Assembly (NCBI RefSeq): GCF_001258055.1
Contig: NZ_CVRM01000022.1
Location: forward strand, 248,001-312,000
From: Phaeobacter italicus
GTDB taxonomy: Bacteria > Pseudomonadota > Alphaproteobacteria > Rhodobacterales > Rhodobacteraceae
DNA: 64,000 nt
Direction of reading: 5' to 3'
In this document: piece by piece, positions 11,074 to 19,204 of the stretch
Position numbering within the stretch: the stretch's first letter is position 1
Layout: each line of letters starts with the position of its first letter
Translations under genes and position numbers: made by a program
Notes under the pieces: generated by a model
Told to the model about the DNA's origin: nothing
The model's input: the letters and a program-made list of their open reading frames with translations, nothing else
Databases searched by the model: none

Positions 11074-11687
11074 AACTTGATGTGATCAAACTGGACGGCG
11101 GCAAAGCCGGCGACATCGAGCTGGATGCAGAGCTGTTCGGCCTGGAGCCGCGCACCGACATCCTGCACCGTGTGGTGCGCTGGCAGCGTAACAACGCGCA
11201 GGCCGGTACCCACAAGGTAAAGACCCGCTCCGAGACCTCCTACTCGACCAAGAAGATCTATCGCCAAAAAGGCACCGGTGGCGCACGTCACGGTGACCGT
11301 AACGCGCCGATCTTCCGCAAGGGTGGTATCTACAAGGGTCCGACCCCGCGTTCGCACGGCCACGATCTGACCAAGAAATTCCGCAAGCTGGGTCTGCGCC
11401 ACGCGCTGTCCGCCAAGGCAAAAGCGGGTGAACTGGTCGTTATTGAGAACGCCGATTCCGAAGGCAAGACCGCCGCTCTGGCCAAACAGGTCAAGGACCT
11501 GGGTTGGAAGCGCGCACTGGTCATCGATGGTGCATCCGTGAACGAGGGCTTTGCCCGCGCCGCGCGCAACATCGAAGGTCTGGATATCCTGCCGACAATG
11601 GGCGCAAACGTCTATGACATCCTGAAGCGTGACACCCTGGTGATCACCAAAGCAGGTGTCGAAGCACTGGAGGCTCGCCTGAAATGA
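11070..11687 (+). CDS. rplD: 50S ribosomal protein L4
   Basis: The 205-residue protein has the L4 fingerprint [20 protein letters not shown] followed by [12 protein letters not shown], the extended loop that lines the peptide exit tunnel. In enterobacteria L4 is also the autogenous regulator of the S10 operon. Here the leader has an attenuator-like hairpin, but regulation by L4 is only inference. It overlaps rplC at its start and rplW at its end by 4 bases each, so the three are translationally coupled. Confidence 0.99.
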
Positions 11688-11980
11688 GCGCGAAGGCAGA
11701 ACACTACGACGTGATCCGCAAGCCGATCATCACCGAAAAAGCAACCATGGCATCCGAAACCGGTGCAGTGGTCTTCGAAGTGGCGATCGACTCCAACAAG
11801 CCGCAGATCAAAGAAGCCGTTGAGGCGCTCTTTGGTGTGAAGGTCAAAGCGGTCAACACCACCATCACCAAGGGTAAGGTCAAGCGTTTCCGCGGCCAAA
11901 TCGGCCGTCGCAAGGACGTGAAGAAAGCCTATGTGACCCTGGAAGAAGGCAACACCATCGACGTGTCCACCGGACTCTGA
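11684..11980 (+). CDS. rplW: 50S ribosomal protein L23
   Basis: The 98-residue protein begins [19 protein letters not shown], with the L23 motif [21 protein letters not shown]23 sits at the tunnel exit and is the docking site for trigger factor and the signal recognition particle. It overlaps rplD by 4 bases. In the usual S10 operon rplB follows at once; here a terminator and an unrelated cassette intervene. Confidence 0.99.
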
Positions 11981-12003
11981 GATCTGTTTGTCTGAGACTT
12001 AAG

Positions 12004-12031
12004 AAGGCCCCTGCGAAAGCGGGGGCCTTTT
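12004..12031 (+). terminator. rho-independent terminator after rplW
   Basis: The stem AAGGCCCC.GC / GC.GGGGCCTT carries a GAAA tetraloop and ends in TTTT. It closes the rpsJ-rplW unit in the middle of what is normally one S10 operon. Confidence 0.9.
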
Positions 12032-12359
12032 GCGTTGGGGCAGGGGGCTTGTGGGGCATTGCGGGGTCCTTTGGAGCAGCTTGGCCTCAAGGTATAGCCG
12101 CTGCCGGTTAAGATCCGCGAAGCCCTGCGTGCGCACCTCACGCAACAGCCTTCAATGCGCTGAGCTGCGATCTCGCTCCTAGGCGCGGAATCAAGGCCGC
12201 AGGCCGCCGCGCCAGCGCCGTCCCGCTCCCATGGGGCGGCGCTTGTGCTGATGTTCTGCGTGTCGGTGAGGTCGTACGGACTTGGCTGGGATAAACTGCC
12301 AAACGCCACGTTGAGAGCGCCACCCCGCGGGACGGCGCTGACGCGGCTAGAGTAGAATA
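12032..12359. other. gene-free segment with inverted repeats before the AT-rich cassette
   Basis: No credible gene was found. A 14-base sequence at 12213-12226 recurs as a perfect inverted copy at 12327-12340. The left copy also pairs locally with 12233-12243 to form an 11-base stem with one G-T pair. A weak promoter-like pair (TTGGAG 12071-12076, 16 bases, TATAGC 12093-12098) may serve the downstream cassette. Confidence 0.5.
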
Positions 12360-12596
12360 ATGGAGCCTAACAACTGGCAAGCCTTTTGGGGTGGCAGTAC
12401 ATCATCTAGAAAAGTCAGCGAATACAAGCCAATTTTGTTCGATAGGTGTGGGATGGCGCATTTGATAGGCCGGGATGATCTTCAAAGGCTCGAACACTTG
12501 GATCACGAAAATTTGGGAGGCGTACCGTTCCGCTGCTTCCTTTGTGGGAAAACGAGAAGTGGACACTATGGCTTCCAGGTGATGGTGGCGGTCTGA
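12360..12596 (+). CDS. small AT-rich protein with CxxC motif, first gene of cassette
   Basis: The 78-residue protein is of unknown family. It contains three cysteines, one in FDRCGM and two in a CFLC knuckle (about residues 59-62), and a central acidic/His stretch EHLDHENLGG. A metal-binding role is possible but only one clear CxxC pair is present. It stops at 12596, five bases before the ATG of the next gene, so the two are probably co-translated. Alternatively the two frames could be one gene broken by a frameshift near 12590. Codon use is AT-rich compared with the ribosomal genes. Confidence 0.45.
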   Translation: MEPNNWQAFWGGSTSSRKVSEYKPILFDRCGMAHLIGRDDLQRLEHLDHENLGGVPFRCFLCGKTRSGHYGFQVMVAV

Positions 12597-12601
12597 TTAA
12601 G

Positions 12602-13474
12602 ATGCACCCAGTTGGCGCTTCTAACTGTGCCTATTTAACAAGGAGTTCTTTAGCGAGCGAAGAGGATCTTTACCTGAGCTTTCTGAATTTCGTTTGTCAA
12701 AGATTGAGCTTTCCTGAGACGAACAGCTTTGTTCACGCTGTTGAGGATGACTTCCACCTTCTTGCTGTTCATGCGGCTAAGCTAGAGCATTTTTTTCTCA
12801 ACAGAGAACGCATAGACTCCACGCTTGTTTCGTCTTTCGTTCGGTCGGAAGTTGAGGCTTTGCTGGCAACGGCGAGATCAGTTTTTGACCTATCCCAAGA
12901 GATCGTTGCTCGTATTTGGAACGACCGTATTCGTTTGAATGATGAGGAGGCTGATAGCAACAAGAACCGGAACAAGTTGCCTGCCAGCTTTCGCAAAGTT
13001 GTTTTGGAGAACAATAGAGTTCGAACTGCAGATAGAATTTCGGAAAAGTACTCTCTTTCGTCAAGAATGGCGGAAGTCTACGAGAAGCACTCAAATTTCT
13101 TTTGCACCTTGAGGCGGAGCCGAGATCTGATCGTTCATGGAACGAAGAGTGCAGGGCATGTGTTCGTTACAGAAAGAGGGTTCGCAGTACGCAAGTCTGA
13201 GCAACCCTTTGATGATTTCAATTGGCAAGATTTTCACGCTTATAATGAGAACTTGGTTTCTCTCAAGCCTTGGTTAGCACATGTAATCTTGGAGACAATT
13301 GAAGCATGCAGCGAACTAGTAGAGTCGCTGCAGTCGGCAGCACACTTCGGTGGTGATCTTTTCCCTGGCTATGAGGTCAGGTTGCGTGACCCGGCGAATA
13401 AGGCCATAGTTGAATTGTTGAACGCTGCATCAGAAGATTTGAGCGTGTCCAAGGCCGCCGCATTCTGGGCCTAA
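12602..13474 (+). CDS. HEPN-like helical protein, possible RNase
   Basis: The 290-residue, mostly helical protein was not assigned to a named family. Residues 171-179 read RRSRDLIVH. The R-D-x3-H core (R174, H179) fits the R-[N/D/H]-x3-5-H active site of HEPN-domain RNases. It is preceded, about 80-90 residues earlier, by a long amphipathic helix (VRSEVEALLATARSVFDLSQ), the arrangement expected of a HEPN four-helix bundle. After the motif comes a beta-like HVFVTERGFAV. HEPN proteins often act as toxins or antiviral RNases. Here the assignment rests on motif and predicted fold only. The ATG at 12602 was preferred to an upstream in-frame start whose extra residues overlap the preceding gene. 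The gene is AT-rich, suggesting transfer. Confidence 0.5.
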   Translation: MHPVGASNCAYLTRSSLASEEDLYLSFLNFVCQRLSFPETNSFVHAVEDDFHLLAVHAAKLEHFFLNRERIDSTLVSSFVRSEVEALLATARSVFDLSQEIVARIWNDRIRLNDEEADSNKNRNKLPASFRKVVLENNRVRTADRISEKYSLSSRMAEVYEKHSNFFCTLRRSRDLIVHGTKSAGHVFVTERGFAVRKSEQPFDDFNWQDFHAYNENLVSLKPWLAHVILETIEACSELVESLQSAAHFGGDLFPGYEVRLRDPANKAIVELLNAASEDLSVSKAAAFWA

Positions 13475-13479
13475 CCCCA

Positions 13480-13508
13480 TTGCCACCCCTCCGACTCTCT
13501 GCTATGCC
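13480..13508 (+). promoter_or_regulatory. candidate promoter of the rplB unit
   Basis: TTGCCA (13480-13485, identical to the rpsJ -35), a 17-base spacer, and TATGCC (13503-13508). It begins 6 bases after the stop codon of the AT-rich cassette and would give a leader of about 165 bases to rplB. Confidence 0.5.
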
Positions 13509-13522
13509 GCAGCAATCCTGAA

Positions 13523-13545
13523 GACCCCGGATTCGTTCCGGGGTC
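13523..13545 (+). repeat. perfect 8-base hairpin in the rplB leader
   Basis: GACCCCGG (13523-13530) pairs with CCGGGGTC (13538-13545) across a 7-base loop. There is no T run directly after it, so it is more likely a leader structure than a terminator. Confidence 0.6.
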
Positions 13546-13678
13546 GTTACGTTTGTCGGGATGTTCGAACTCGGGGACCTTTGGGGCCCTATATCACTGG
13601 CACCTACGGGGGCCTTAAACATAGCTGGACCAAAGACAAAAACCTAAGGTCTGGCACGCTAAACGGAAGACAGAAAGC

Positions 13679-14521
13679 ATGGCACTCAAGTCGTATAAAC
13701 CGACTACGCCGGGCCAGCGTGGGCTGGTTCTGATCGACCGTTCGGAGCTTTGGAAAGGGCGTCCGGTCAAATCTCTCACTGAGGGTCTGACCAAATCGGG
13801 CGGCCGGAACAACACCGGACGGATCACTTCACGTCGTCGTGGCGGCGGCGCAAAGCGTCTCTACCGGATCGTCGATTTCAAGCGCAACAAATTCGATGTT
13901 GCGGCGACCGTCGAGCGGATCGAATACGACCCGAACCGGACCGCATTCATCGCACTGATCAAATACGAAGACGGCGAGCAGGCGTATATCCTCGCTCCGC
14001 AGCGTCTGGCAGTTGGTGACAAGGTAATCGCCTCCGCGAAAGCCGACATCAAGCCGGGCAACGCAATGCCGTTCTCGGGCATGCCGATCGGTACCATCGT
14101 TCACAACATCGAAATGAAGCCCGGCAAAGGCGGCCAGATCGCCCGTGCAGCCGGTACCTATGCTCAGTTCGTTGGTCGTGATGGTGGCTACGCTCAGATC
14201 CGCCTGTCCTCGGGTGAACTGCGCCTCGTCCGTCAGGAATGCATGGCCACCGTTGGTGCCGTGTCCAACCCTGACAACTCCAACCAGAACTTTGGTAAAG
14301 CCGGCCGTATGCGCCACAAGGGCAAGCGTCCTTCTGTGCGTGGTGTGGTTATGAACCCGATCGATCACCCGCACGGTGGTGGTGAAGGTCGTACCTCCGG
14401 TGGTCGTCACCCGGTGACCCCATGGGGTAAGCCGACCAAAGGTAAGCGCACCCGCAACAAAAACAAAGCGTCGCAAAAGCTCATCATCCGCTCGCGCCAC
14501 GCCAAGAAGAAGGGACGTTAA
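13679..14521 (+). CDS. rplB: 50S ribosomal protein L2
   Basis: The 280-residue protein is among the most conserved 23S rRNA binders and is needed for subunit association and peptidyl-transfer activity. It starts [15 protein letters not shown] and carries the functional histidine loop [18 protein letters not shown] near residue 225, with a basic C terminus. It is the first gene of the second S10-cluster unit, after the insertion behind rplW. rpsS begins 3 bases after its stop. Confidence 0.99.
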
Positions 14522-15906: not shown

Positions 15907-16320
15907 ATGCTTCAACCAAAGCGTACTAAATTCCGCAAAATGCACAAAGGCCGGATCTCCGGTGAAGCAAAAGGCGGTTCGGACCTGAACTTCGGCACCT
16001 ATGGCCTGAAGGCAACTACTCCTGAGCGTGTGACTGCACGTCAGATCGAGGCTGCCCGTCGTGCCATGACCCGCCACATGAAGCGTCAGGGCCGTGTATG
16101 GATCCGCATCTTCCCGGACACCCCGGTTACCTCTAAGCCCGTCGAAGTTCGTATGGGTAAAGGTAAGGGCTCCGTGGACTACTGGGCATGCAAAGTTAAG
16201 CCCGGTCGCGTGATGTTCGAGATCGACGGTGTGAACGACGACATCGCACGCGAGGCCCTGCGCCTGGCCGCGATGAAACTGCCGGTGAAAACCCGCGTCG
16301 TGGTTCGCGAAGACTGGTAA
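15907..16320 (+). CDS. rplP: 50S ribosomal protein L16
   Basis: The 137-residue protein begins [19 protein letters not shown] and has the L16 core [21 protein letters not shown] and [13 protein letters not shown]. It contacts tRNA elbows near the A site of the large subunit. It ends the rplB-rplP unit; in most bacteria rpmC follows at once, but here a terminator and about 2.6 kb of unrelated genes come first. Confidence 0.99.
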
Positions 16321-16352
16321 TTGGCGAAAGCCAGATACTGATCTGAAAATAG

Positions 16353-16384
16353 AAACCCCCGCTGAAATCTCAGCGGGGGTTTTT
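16353..16384 (+). terminator. rho-independent terminator after rplP
   Basis: A perfect 13-base stem (16353-16365 with 16370-16382) has an AATC loop and ends in a T run. It closes the rplB-rplP unit. Confidence 0.95.
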
Positions 16385-16460
16385 CGTTCTGCGGGTTTTG
16401 TTGGCAGGGGATGGCGGTGTCTGCCTGCGGTGACGGGGCAGGGGGGGGGGCGTGCGCCCC

Positions 16461-16928
16461 TCAGCGGTATTTGGCTGCGGTGATGAACTCGCCAAAGGCC
16501 TCGCACCAGATCACAACGGTTGTATAGGCCTCGATGTTGATGCCCTCTGGCACGTCAAGGATCAGCCCGCCAAACATCTTGACATCCCCCACCCGCACAG
16601 AGGCATCCTTGATGGCTTCAAATCCGGCTTCATCCTCTACGAACTCGGGGGCGAGATACAGCTTGTAGTCCGGGCCGGGGGCCAGCTCTCCGATATGGGT
16701 GATCCGCGAGGGGGACAGGCTGATGCTGCCGGTGCCCCAATGCAGGAAATCGCTGCCTGCAAGATCACGGGTAAAGCTGCCGGTATAGGTCGCACCTTCC
16801 GCGCCAGCGGTCAGCGTTGCGGCATCGGGCCCCTTTGGCGCGGTCAGGATTGGCAGGATGTAGATCCCCAATGCCACGCCGATCACCAGCGCAATCCCAT
16901 GTGTCACAAGTCTGAAGATCCAACGCAT
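16461..16928 (-). CDS. DM13-domain protein with N-terminal membrane anchor
   Basis: The 155-residue protein has one hydrophobic segment (about residues 8-29), then a C-terminal domain of the DM13 type with SFTRDLAGSDFLHWGTGSI, KLYLAPEF and the terminal VVIWCEAFGEFITAA. That ending includes the single conserved cysteine (C142) expected of DM13. The DM13 family has been proposed to take part in extracytoplasmic redox or electron-transfer reactions, though experimental support is limited. The start at 16928 (MRWIFRL) has a GAGGG site; the longer frame lacks one. It is transcribed opposite to the ribosomal genes and divergently from the following oxygenase-like gene. Confidence 0.75.
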   Translation of the reverse strand: MRWIFRLVTHGIALVIGVALGIYILPILTAPKGPDAATLTAGAEGATYTGSFTRDLAGSDFLHWGTGSISLSPSRITHIGELAPGPDYKLYLAPEFVEDEAGFEAIKDASVRVGDVKMFGGLILDVPEGINIEAYTTVVIWCEAFGEFITAAKYR

Positions 16929-17059
16929 ATCCCGGTCCCTCTTGCTGAGTTTTGCGCAGCTTACGTGCGTCAACTTGTCAAAGGAAAGAGCCAGTTTGGC
17001 CTGCGGGCCGGGAAACAACGGATCTCGCACTTTGTCCGGGCATGCGCTATGGGACAGCT

Positions 17060-17680
17060 ATGGCACAGATTGAATCACTCTTCGTTACCCGTCTCTACCG
17101 CGCCGCCTTGTCCGAACATGGACCCAAGATCGACGCGAGTGAACTTGAAAACTCCTGCTTTGTGATCGCACAGGATGACGACGCCGGTCAGGACTGGTGC
17201 GAGGAGAATGGCTATCCGGGCTACACCTCTTATGCATCGCTGACGGACCTGCCCTGGCGCTTTCCGATCTTTGCCGATCTGGTAAAGTCGCTGGACCTGC
17301 ATGTGGCGGCCTTTGCCGAGGATCTGCAACTGGATCTGGACGGGCGCAAACTGGTGCTGGAAGATCTCTGGATCAACATCCTGCCCGAAGGCGGCACCCA
17401 CGCCAGCCACATCCACCCCCATTCGGTGATTTCGGGCACCACCTATGTGTCGATGCCCGACGGCACTAGCGCCCTGAAACTGGAAGACCCGCGTCACGCC
17501 ATGATGATGGCCCATCCCCCGCGCACCAAGGATTGCCGACAGGAGCTGAAGACCTTTGTCTACCAATCCCCCGCGGTCGGTGATGTGCTGCTCTGGGAGA
17601 GCTTTATCCGCCACGAAGTCCCGCTGAACATGGCCGAAGACGAGCGCGTCTCGGTGAGCTTCAACTACCGCTGGGAGTAA
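17060..17680 (+). CDS. putative 2OG-Fe(II) oxygenase family protein
   Basis: The 206-residue protein matches the TIGR02466-type family (Pfam 2OG-FeII_Oxy_5). After an N-terminal alpha/beta region come WINILPEGGTHASHIHPHS with candidate iron ligands H117/H119, the strand SGTTYVSMPDG, and the distal half GDVLLWESFIRHEVPLN with H185 and R196 for iron and 2-oxoglutarate. The family is common in marine bacteria and their phages, and its substrate is unknown. The ATG at 17060 (MAQIESLF) was chosen because the longer frame overlaps the divergent DM13 gene and has no family-like sequence. It has no operon partner. Confidence 0.8.
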   Translation: MAQIESLFVTRLYRAALSEHGPKIDASELENSCFVIAQDDDAGQDWCEENGYPGYTSYASLTDLPWRFPIFADLVKSLDLHVAAFAEDLQLDLDGRKLVLEDLWINILPEGGTHASHIHPHSVISGTTYVSMPDGTSALKLEDPRHAMMMAHPPRTKDCRQELKTFVYQSPAVGDVLLWESFIRHEVPLNMAEDERVSVSFNYRWE

Positions 17681-17799
17681 CCGCCATCCTGGAAATGATC
17701 CGGGAGGGGCATTCAAACGCGAACGGGCGTAGTCCCCGGTCGCTGACTGAACGGGAGAGCGCGTTTGTGGCACTCCTCAGGTGAGGGGGGCGCCTCTTA

Positions 17800-18168
17800 G
17801 TGTATGATCACAGCCCGATTGTTTTGAACGATGGTGAGCAGGTGGTCCACGCCGTTCACGCCCGCATAGTTCCAACCTTGACCGAAGTTGTGGTTATCGC
17901 CCTGTGTGCGCCGCTGGCTCTGGTGATATGGCTGTTTGTGCATCGGAGCTTTCGCTCGTCCACATATGTGATTACCACACAGCGTGTCCTGTCGGTTGAA
18001 AGATCGGGTGTTTGCGATGAAGTCGGTATCGGGGACATTCAGCGCCTGAAAACCCGTCGCGGAGCGATGATGATCTACGCAGGGGGCAAGCGGCTGTGGC
18101 TCCCGCGGCTGCCGGACGGCTGGCATTTCGAAACCGTTCTGAACAATGTGCAGCGCATGGGAATGTGA
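17800..18168 (+). CDS. small membrane protein with bacterial PH-like domain
   Basis: The 122-residue protein has one or two hydrophobic segments at about residues 27-48, then YVITTQRVLSVERSG, the strand pattern of the bPH2/YdbS-type domain, and a C-terminal amphipathic helix (HFETVLNNVQRM). The family is poorly characterised and membrane-associated. No ATG is available in frame near the beginning. A GTG at 17800 behind a G-rich Shine-Dalgarno-like stretch gives a complete domain and was used. It follows the 2OG-oxygenase-like gene by about 120 bases on the same strand. Confidence 0.6.
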   Translation: MYDHSPIVLNDGEQVVHAVHARIVPTLTEVVVIALCAPLALVIWLFVHRSFRSSTYVITTQRVLSVERSGVCDEVGIGDIQRLKTRRGAMMIYAGGKRLWLPRLPDGWHFETVLNNVQRMGM

Positions 18169-18365
18169 TGCTGGCGCTTGACGTAAATCCCGCTTCTTTA
18201 GGGGGCATAAGCCGCTTTGCGAGCCCCCAGGGAAGGCGCCCTTCCGTGGGGGGGGCGGGGCCGACCCGGGCTTTGAGCCCGCGCCAAGATCTTCAGGTCA
18301 AGAGATCGCGAATGGCGGTTTAGAGCCGTTTATCCAAACCACGCCCGCGTCTGAACCACAGGTGG

Positions 18366-18410
18366 CGTGCGGCAGTCTCGCATTCCTTTTCAAGGATTGC
18401 CTGCCGCACG
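18366..18410. repeat. long stem-loop downstream of the DUF2322 gene
   Basis: A perfect 10-base inverted repeat (18366-18375 with 18401-18410) encloses a second small stem TCCTT/AAGGA. It lies 4 bases beyond the stop codon of the minus-strand gene and may end or stabilise its transcript, although no T run follows. Confidence 0.55.
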
Positions 18411-18413
18411 ATG

Positions 18414-18743
18414 TCACTTTGTGACAACCCGCACCGTCAATGGTGCCCCGCCGCCAATAATCTCCAGCAGCAGGTCGATGTTGGGATGCGCACCGGGCCG
18501 GTTTCTGGCGTCTTCGGTATGTTCCGCAAAAACGGCGAGCCCGTGAGAGGCGGCTTCAGCATCCAGTGTCTCAAATGTCTGTGCCAGATATTGATAGACC
18601 GCAAGCGAGCCCTGTTTGCCGGGAATGTTGTCGATACGGGCCGTGACGCGGCCGGAAGTATCCAAGAGCTCGATACCGTCTGTCCCCTCGATCGAAGGGA
18701 TAAGTTGGAGGTTCTCTTTGAACGATGCGGTGGGCTGGATCAT
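18414..18743 (-). CDS. DUF2322 family protein
   Basis: The 109-residue soluble protein begins MIQPTASFKENLQLIPSI and contains GIELLDTSGRVTARIDNIPG, KQGSLAVYQYLAQTF, GLAVFAEHTEDAR and HPNIDLLLEI, a pattern I associate with the uncharacterised DUF2322 family. Function is unknown. The start at 18743 has an AAAGGAT site 7 bases upstream; the longer frame upstream encodes Gly/Lys-rich sequence typical of non-coding DNA. It is on the strand opposite to rpmC and shares the intergenic region that holds the rpmC promoter. Confidence 0.75.
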   Translation of the reverse strand: MIQPTASFKENLQLIPSIEGTDGIELLDTSGRVTARIDNIPGKQGSLAVYQYLAQTFETLDAEAASHGLAVFAEHTEDARNRPGAHPNIDLLLEIIGGGAPLTVRVVTK

Positions 18744-18831
18744 TGCGGCATCCTTTGCAGTGTGATTGGATGCTGGGTAGCAGCTTTTGGATGGCTTGCA
18801 AGCAACACCCCCGCGCGCGCCAACCTTTCCC

Positions 18832-18860
18832 TTGCCCCCCCCTCCTATCTCCTCTATAGG
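18832..18860 (+). promoter_or_regulatory. sigma70-type promoter of the spc (rpmC) unit
   Basis: TTGCCC (18832-18837), a 17-base spacer, TATAGG (18855-18860). The predicted leader to rpmC is about 137 bases. It lies in a gene-free gap of 260 bases. Confidence 0.65.
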
Positions 18861-19003
18861 GACCCATCGCTTGGGCCAAATCCGCCTTGGATTTTGGTCT
18901 GGTGATTCTTTTTGCCGTGCATTTTGCACGGGTGACATAACCCACCAGGTTCAAAGGTGACCCACACGGGGCCTTCTGGTGCTTAGGACAAGGAACAAAG
19001 GCG

Positions 19004-19204
19004 ATGAACGCCAATGATCTGCGCGACAAGACCGTGGATGAACTCCGCGACATGCTCGCATCCATGAAAAAAGAGAGCTTCAACCTGCGCTTTCAGCAGG
19101 CAACCGGTCAGCTGGAAAACACTTCGGGTATCAAAGCGGCACGCCGCAACGCTGCCCGCGTGAAGACCATCCTGAACGAAAAAGCTGCAGCAGCAGCCGA
19201 ATAA
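19004..19204 (+). CDS. rpmC: 50S ribosomal protein L29
   Basis: The 66-residue, two-helix protein ([18 protein letters not shown], then [24 protein letters not shown]) lies at the tunnel exit next to L23. It is the first gene after the second break in the cluster and is driven by the promoter at 18832-18860. rpsQ follows after 11 bases. Confidence 0.98.

Follow-up and report, generated by a model that had tools for sequence, protein, structure and literature searches.

Few gene strings in bacteria are as conserved as the S10 ribosomal-protein cluster. Passages of PMC7247131 cover a ribosomal-protein leader named L2-Alphaproteobacteria (RF03142). Hotspots without recognizable mobile elements, with frequent recombination at the flanking core genes, are described in parts of Oliveira et al. 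(2017; PMC5635113). For HEPN proteins, passages of PMC3710099 give the active site as Rx4-6H, in which the arginine is mostly followed by N, D or H and a further acidic residue is often present. Bub operons are presented in a portion of PMC13373217 as putative immune pathways, with protection from phage not shown for them there.

We analyzed a 64,000-nucleotide stretch of Phaeobacter italicus (contig NZ_CVRM01000022.1, positions 248,001 to 312,000; “the window”), a piece of a 4.05-Mb genome, in which rplW and rplB of the S10 cluster are separated by an insert. On balance, we favor the reading that this insert holds a probably damaged, putative HEPN-type defense or toxin RNase, and that this gene is one interchangeable cargo of a slot that Rhodobacteraceae carry between rplW and rplB.

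The insert between rplW and rplB

In the window, 1698 bases separate the end of rplW (11980) from the start of rplB (13679). An earlier note on this DNA had described two open reading frames here, at 12360–12596 (78 codons, ORF1) and 12602–13474 (290 codons, ORF2), with a 5-base gap and AT-rich codon use. Both frames are present, and the composition agrees with the description: ORF2 has a GC content of 47% and a GC3 of 49%, compared with a GC3 of 62–74% in the five adjacent ribosomal genes that were measured. A foreign origin of the insert is supported. The features of the region are as follows.

11684..11980, plus strand: rplW (ORF), the left core flank of the slot; a 98-residue match occurs in 354 of 394 Rhodobacteraceae genomes
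12002..12031, plus strand: terminator-like hairpin directly after rplW, the left slot border (13-bp stem, z −4.19)
12206..12347, no strand assigned: palindromic repeat, MITE- or REP-like (21-nt inverted ends, 95% complementary, z −5.05)
12360..12596, plus strand: ORF1 (78 codons), no independent gene; the CxxC-bearing 3′ half (12522–12596) is read out of frame
12453..12521, plus strand: N-terminal piece of the HEPN-like gene in ORF1’s frame; six homologues match it at their N-termini, with a score that 1 of 2000 shuffles reaches
12482..13474, plus strand: main open frame of the HEPN-like gene, comprising ORF2 from its ATG at 12602 and the in-frame part upstream
13121–13138, plus strand: R-D-x3-H (ORF2 residues 174–179), within the main open frame of the HEPN-like gene
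13475..13678, plus strand: right flank of the slot, conserved (204 nt with 94.6% identity to congener G002), starting one base past the ORF2 stop
13523–13545, plus strand: hairpin in the right flank (z −2.43)
13598..13676, plus strand: L2-Alphaproteobacteria ribosomal-protein leader RF03142 (59.8 bits, gathering score 37.8, E 4.2e-13)
13679..14521, plus strand: rplB (ORF), the right core flank of the slot

No promoter turned up in a sigma-70-type scan of the window slot, and a search for direct repeats was likewise negative; the ORFs of the slot include neither an integrase nor a ubiquitin-like gene. The palindromic repeat at 12206–12347 has one copy in the window genome; the G006 slot, in the same genus, also has one, and genome G008 has 17 full or partial matches to it. 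The repeat lies just upstream of the cargo gene and may be a recombination handle.

The S10 cluster is split in Rhodobacteraceae

To the 60 regions fetched downstream of rplW in Rhodobacteraceae we added that of genome G159, giving 61. Eight of these had no rplB within ~7 kb and were excluded from the gap statistics; six stayed unplaced, and the other two, G290 and G065, were located afterwards. G290 has a gap of ~8.7 kb by coordinates. In G065 (contig C6; L042 and L177), rplB–rplP are in the opposite orientation to rplW and ~10 kb away, and the slot was a rearrangement point.

A survey of rplW–rplB junctions in related genomes, which the earlier note had proposed, gave gaps of 116–5517 bp (median 1236) with variable contents in 53 Rhodobacteraceae genomes. 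The rplB–rpsS, rpsS–rplV, rplV–rpsC and rpsC–rplP junctions of the same set (52–53 values each) are all ≤28 bp. Outside the family, the rplW–rplB gap is 2–39 bp in 27 of 27 loci, the best-scoring ones from the 122 non-family genomes searched. Given the wide gap inside the family and the narrow one outside it, we conclude that the cluster is split at rplW–rplB in Rhodobacteraceae, and that in this survey the hypervariable slot is peculiar to them.

Of 54 slots, 28 have a perfect stem of ≥6 bp within 110 nt after rplW (shuffles: mean 3.7), and 48 have TTTT within the same distance. A consensus terminator scan of the window slot reported three sites against 2.1 expected, the rplW hairpin not being among them. 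By eye, L2-leader-like sequence precedes rplB in the other slots inspected. With a hairpin after rplW and an L2 leader before rplB, the slot contents most likely lie between two separately transcribed units, so that no operon is interrupted. This bears on the suggestion that the insert was parked in an essential operon where its loss would be costly. The slot most likely separates two transcription units, and close relatives carry different contents in it or, in some cases, none. Given this gap variation and the seven contents found in seven genomes of the genus, we rejected protection from loss by an essential operon as unsupported.

The cluster has a second split in the family, between rplP and rpmC (16320–19004 in the window), where the distance is 111–3770 bp in 32 family regions (median ~1700). 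In this second slot, one gene is common to the window and G159; it has ...QIESLFVTRLYRAAL... near the start.

Turnover of slot cargo

Across seven genomes of the genus, no two rplW–rplB slots have the same content. The window has the HEPN-like gene, another genome a MatE transporter with other ORFs, and four more have proteins of 463, 318, 285 and 171 residues, respectively; the seventh slot, of 877 bp, lacks any ORF longer than 81 residues. At the DNA level, the slots agree at their borders and in some short stretches, and two of them also have one palindromic repeat in common. Homology with G002 on the right-hand side starts at 13475, the first base past the ORF2 stop. The genes flanking the slot are 92–98% identical to those of the window, and the identities vary from gene to gene. 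This variation fits homologous recombination, although it is suggestive only.

Cargo GC is below that of the flanks in 30 of 42 slots. We picked 73 cargo ORFs mechanically (≥100 residues, little overlap), some of which will be spurious, and these match 45 Pfam families. Of the 25 of these families that were listed, the majority have a metabolic or an unknown function, and a small number belong to toxin–antitoxin or Abi types (SocA/Panacea, ParE and AbiJ_NTD4). PADLOC returned one convincing match on the 73 ORFs, to the candidate defense protein PDC-S32 (G225 slot, L046:712–1923, E 2e-55), and a weak 2OG match. We take the AbiJ_NTD4 match to be this same G225 protein. Among further cargo proteins of the genus, three had no PADLOC match and the fourth had a marginal one (E 0.0065). 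Thus, the slot itself argues for foreign origin and not for defense, as most of the cargo listed is not defense-like.

Two congeneric cargo proteins have features of their own. The 463-residue protein of the G006 slot (L179:846–2234) has a weak match to ApeA_NTD1 (E 3.8e-4, under the curated cut-off) and an FRNPAAHG motif, and is perhaps a second HEPN-like cargo in the genus. The 318-residue protein of the G002 slot (L180:667–1620) had no significant family match; by eye it seems to have membrane segments and a nuclease-like end (...DGLAIDEKTVHLAEVKYS...).

ORF1 and ORF2 as parts of a single gene

The earlier note had read ORF1 and ORF2 as two genes, the first encoding a small partner with a CxxC zinc knuckle. 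Comparison with six homologues points elsewhere. When the DNA of the ORF1 tail is read in ORF2’s frame, none of 2000 shuffles scores as well against these homologues; read in ORF1’s frame, 1929 of 2000 shuffles score equally well or better. In the intact homologues, a W-x-x-W...L-I-K-like element closes the first ~45 residues. The window encodes its counterpart in ORF2’s frame upstream of the ORF2 ATG, by the same DNA that ORF1 reads as ...FRCFLCGKT.... These frame-specific matches decide for one gene, which begins near 12453 in ORF1’s frame, undergoes a −1 frame change at ~12510–12522 and ends at 13474. ORF1 and ORF2 are two frames of this single gene, with the 5′ half of ORF1 supplying the N-terminus of ORF2’s protein. 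The CFLC is present in ORF1, but its knuckle is evidently an artefact of out-of-frame reading.

A module of two genes, a small zinc-knuckle partner and a HEPN toxin, could be read from two ORFs standing 5 bases apart, and an 81-residue DUF2188 gene does precede one homologue (see below), but it encodes a different protein. Relative to the homologues the CxxC tail is out of frame, the whole of ORF1 had no match in the plasmid collection, and its comparison with ten homologue loci gave nothing better than E 0.08. We rejected the zinc-knuckle partner on these grounds, and we regard the two-gene module as scarcely credible.

The frame break may stem from mutation, a read error or frameshifting. 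If programmed −1 frameshifting joined the start of ORF1 to ORF2, the gene would be functional as it stands. The frame change preserves the length of the homologues, and positions 12509–12515 read A AAT TTG, which we take to be a slippery-type heptamer. However, the RNA downstream of the break is no more stable than shuffles (z −0.15), which speaks against frameshifting, and five homologues are intact in one frame. We consider this explanation very improbable. The window copy is instead probably damaged by the frame break near its start, with a probable loss of function. The 331-codon frame that is left has no premature stop and retains the residues of the active site.

A conserved HEPN-type signature

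Residues 174–179 of ORF2 are RDLIVH, which the earlier note had matched to the HEPN active site. R174 and H179 are identical in all eight aligned sequences, the window included, and the residue after the arginine is D in seven and N in one. Two copies outside the alignment also have the motif (L103, RDNIAH; G984, RDNIVH), so that R-[D/N]-x3-H is retained in 10 of the 10 copies covering its position. The motif histidine is the sole one of 11 in the window’s 330-residue frame that is kept in at least six alignment rows. Among acidic residues, D136 (numbered in the 330-residue frame) is present in eight of eight sequences and E123/E125 in seven of seven; the Ex3[KR] pattern, in which the upstream acidic residue of HEPN proteins often lies, varies in the alignment by eye. 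By itself the motif is weak, as R-[NDH]-x(3-5)-H arises in 29.5% of 5000 protein shuffles and the exact spacing in 10.4%. It stands above chance because it is conserved across homologues.

Pfam searches with eight family members returned no HEPN profile and no significant family. Profile–profile comparison with PF05168, PF13643 and PF18739 was empty, in a setting where known HEPN families missed each other too and the positive controls thus failed. Sequence searches of the PDB gave nothing useful. For the window’s two ORFs, PHROGs, PADLOC and NCBIfam gave nothing significant, with no PADLOC match for either. The weak matches were to ORF1 in NCBIfam (E 0.14) and to ORF2 in Pfam (E 0.79). We therefore describe the protein as HEPN-like and not as a proven HEPN member, with a HEPN fold and RNase activity being probable.

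A rare family with many broken copies

Homologues came from plasmid records and from a genome collection scanned with a three-sequence profile, a first scan of that collection with a single protein having been unproductive. Together with the window, there are 12 loci. The other 11 are G159, G984 and the following.

L003: Rhizobium
L004 and L102: Bradyrhizobium
L005: Mesorhizobium
L098: Ensifer
L099: Propionivibrio
L100: metagenome-assembled genome of Rhizobiaceae
L101: Nitrosomonadales
L103: Kuenenia

With the window genome counted, the family occurs in 2 of 394 Rhodobacteraceae genomes, 1 of 385 genomes of the class (profile) and 2 of 249 of the phylum. No family match was found in the phage collection or among the viral contigs. 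The family is thus rare, so far unnamed and without a significant Pfam match.

A single intact frame, encoding 325–343 residues, is present in five of the 12 loci (L004, L098, L099, L101 and L102), L098 starting at TTG. The other seven copies are broken, interrupted or fragments. The Mesorhizobium copy is a C-terminal fragment (E 0.2 with the window protein and 5e-6 with that of Ensifer), and we read the insert that interrupts L100 as a transposase gene. G159 has a C-terminal piece of the HEPN-like gene in its own rplW–rplB slot, which indicates that the gene has sat in the slot in at least two genera.

The window copy could accordingly be an inert relic, an ordinary transferred gene that is decaying and has no present function in this genome. 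The frame break near its start, the seven broken or fragmentary copies among 12 and the C-terminal piece left in the same slot of G159 are what such decay would leave. On the other hand, the 331-codon frame is open to its end with the active-site residues kept, and the single break could be a sequencing error. We give this reading somewhat less than an even chance; as a statement about the window copy, it is compatible with the explanation that we favor for the family, a HEPN-type defense or toxin RNase.

Defense-type genes beside three intact homologues

Three intact homologues, those of Bradyrhizobium quebecense, B. pachyrhizi and Ensifer, adjoin defense-type genes. The neighbors submitted to PADLOC were chosen for their defense-like look, with those of L003, L099, L101 and L103 outside the scan; Pfam matched neither of two ORFs next to L100. 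In B. quebecense, the homologue is the final gene after co-directional multiubiquitin, E2, E1, DUF6527 and DUF2188 genes, and the 81-residue DUF2188 gene lies 14 bases upstream of it. We take the multiubiquitin/E2/E1/DUF6527 run to be a Bub-type operon, DUF6527 presumably belonging to such operons. In B. pachyrhizi, Pycsar cyclase (E 1.8e-221), E1–E2 (8.6e-199) and JAB (2e-55) genes are situated across from the homologue, at a distance of 535 bases. The Ensifer copy follows a Ppl-like ATPase gene (1.6e-22) by 34 bases and faces PifA (5e-259).

The DUF2188 and HEPN-like genes that follow DUF6527 in B. quebecense (L004:7573–8849) are possible accessory or effector genes of Bub.

The earlier proposal of a defense or toxin module fares differently in its parts. 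The conserved HEPN-type signature and the defense-type neighbors at three homologues agree with a defense or toxin gene, and the two-gene module falls away, ORF1 being read as the N-terminus of the HEPN-like gene followed by an out-of-frame tail and not as a separate small partner. A defense role of the protein is probable, as far as motif and gene neighborhood can indicate. Alternatively, the family could be a helical protein with a housekeeping or regulatory task and no RNase activity, in which R-x4-H is conserved for another reason. No HEPN family gives a significant profile match, and the motif turns up in 10–30% of shuffles, as this would lead one to expect. Yet the arginine and the histidine are invariant in every copy covering them, the family is rare and patchy in the class and phylum (the window genome counted in both), and three intact copies have defense-type neighbors. 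We consider a non-RNase protein unlikely.

Proposed model and comparison with known systems

In the model of a HEPN-type RNase cargo that we favor, 12453–13474 would encode a single protein, a member of a rare family whose active site is that of a HEPN-type RNase. The protein would probably be an effector that, under infection or stress, cleaves RNA and halts growth, in the manner of abortive-infection or toxin proteins. Its gene would have arrived as one of many interchangeable cargos of the slot. With the S10 cluster split into two transcription units by the hairpin after rplW and the L2-type leader before rplB, foreign genes could land and be swapped without breaking ribosomal-protein expression, most likely through homologous recombination via the highly similar flanks. 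A broader scheme, which we regard as speculative and rather doubtful, would make this a new family of HEPN RNases, acting as plug-in effectors of unrelated sensing systems (Bub, Pycsar/E1/JAB and Ppl/PifA neighborhoods) and swapped between species via the split S10 platform by recombination at the highly similar ribosomal genes.

The swapping slot inside so conserved a cluster is a more surprising part of these results than the HEPN-like gene. The Rhodobacteraceae slot would show how operon splitting can create a safe landing place, and unknown genes can readily be sought in it. With the HEPN-like family comes a candidate effector tied to ubiquitin-like and cyclic-nucleotide defense-type operons. 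A literature search, judged at the level of its search results, gave no report of an rplW–rplB insertion slot.

Compared with HEPN RNases such as Abi proteins and the nuclease domains of RloC and PrrC, the window family has the same R-[D/N]-x3-H with a polar residue after the arginine, a conserved upstream acidic residue (though with an inconstant Ex3[KR]) and, at three loci, the company of defense-type genes. It differs in matching no Pfam HEPN family significantly, its HEPN fold being putative, and in its conserved N-terminal W-x-x-W...L-I-K element ahead of an R-S-x-F-D-L stretch. One homologue shares with Bub operons (PMC13373217) a multiubiquitin/E2/E1 run, which also contains DUF6527 and of which the homologue is the last gene; the other homologues adjoin different systems, and the window slot has no ubiquitin-like ORF. 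The element before rplB agrees with the L2-Alphaproteobacteria leader RF03142, to the extent that this is set out in passages of PMC7247131: it lies directly upstream of rplB, scores above the gathering score and forms the right border of the slot. Finally, the slot resembles the HGT hotspots described in parts of PMC5635113 in its conserved core flanks, the rapid turnover of its contents and the absence of an integrase among the ORFs of the window slot. It departs from them, as described there, in lying inside the S10 cluster, where the whole family has a split with a terminator-like hairpin on one side and the L2 leader on the other.
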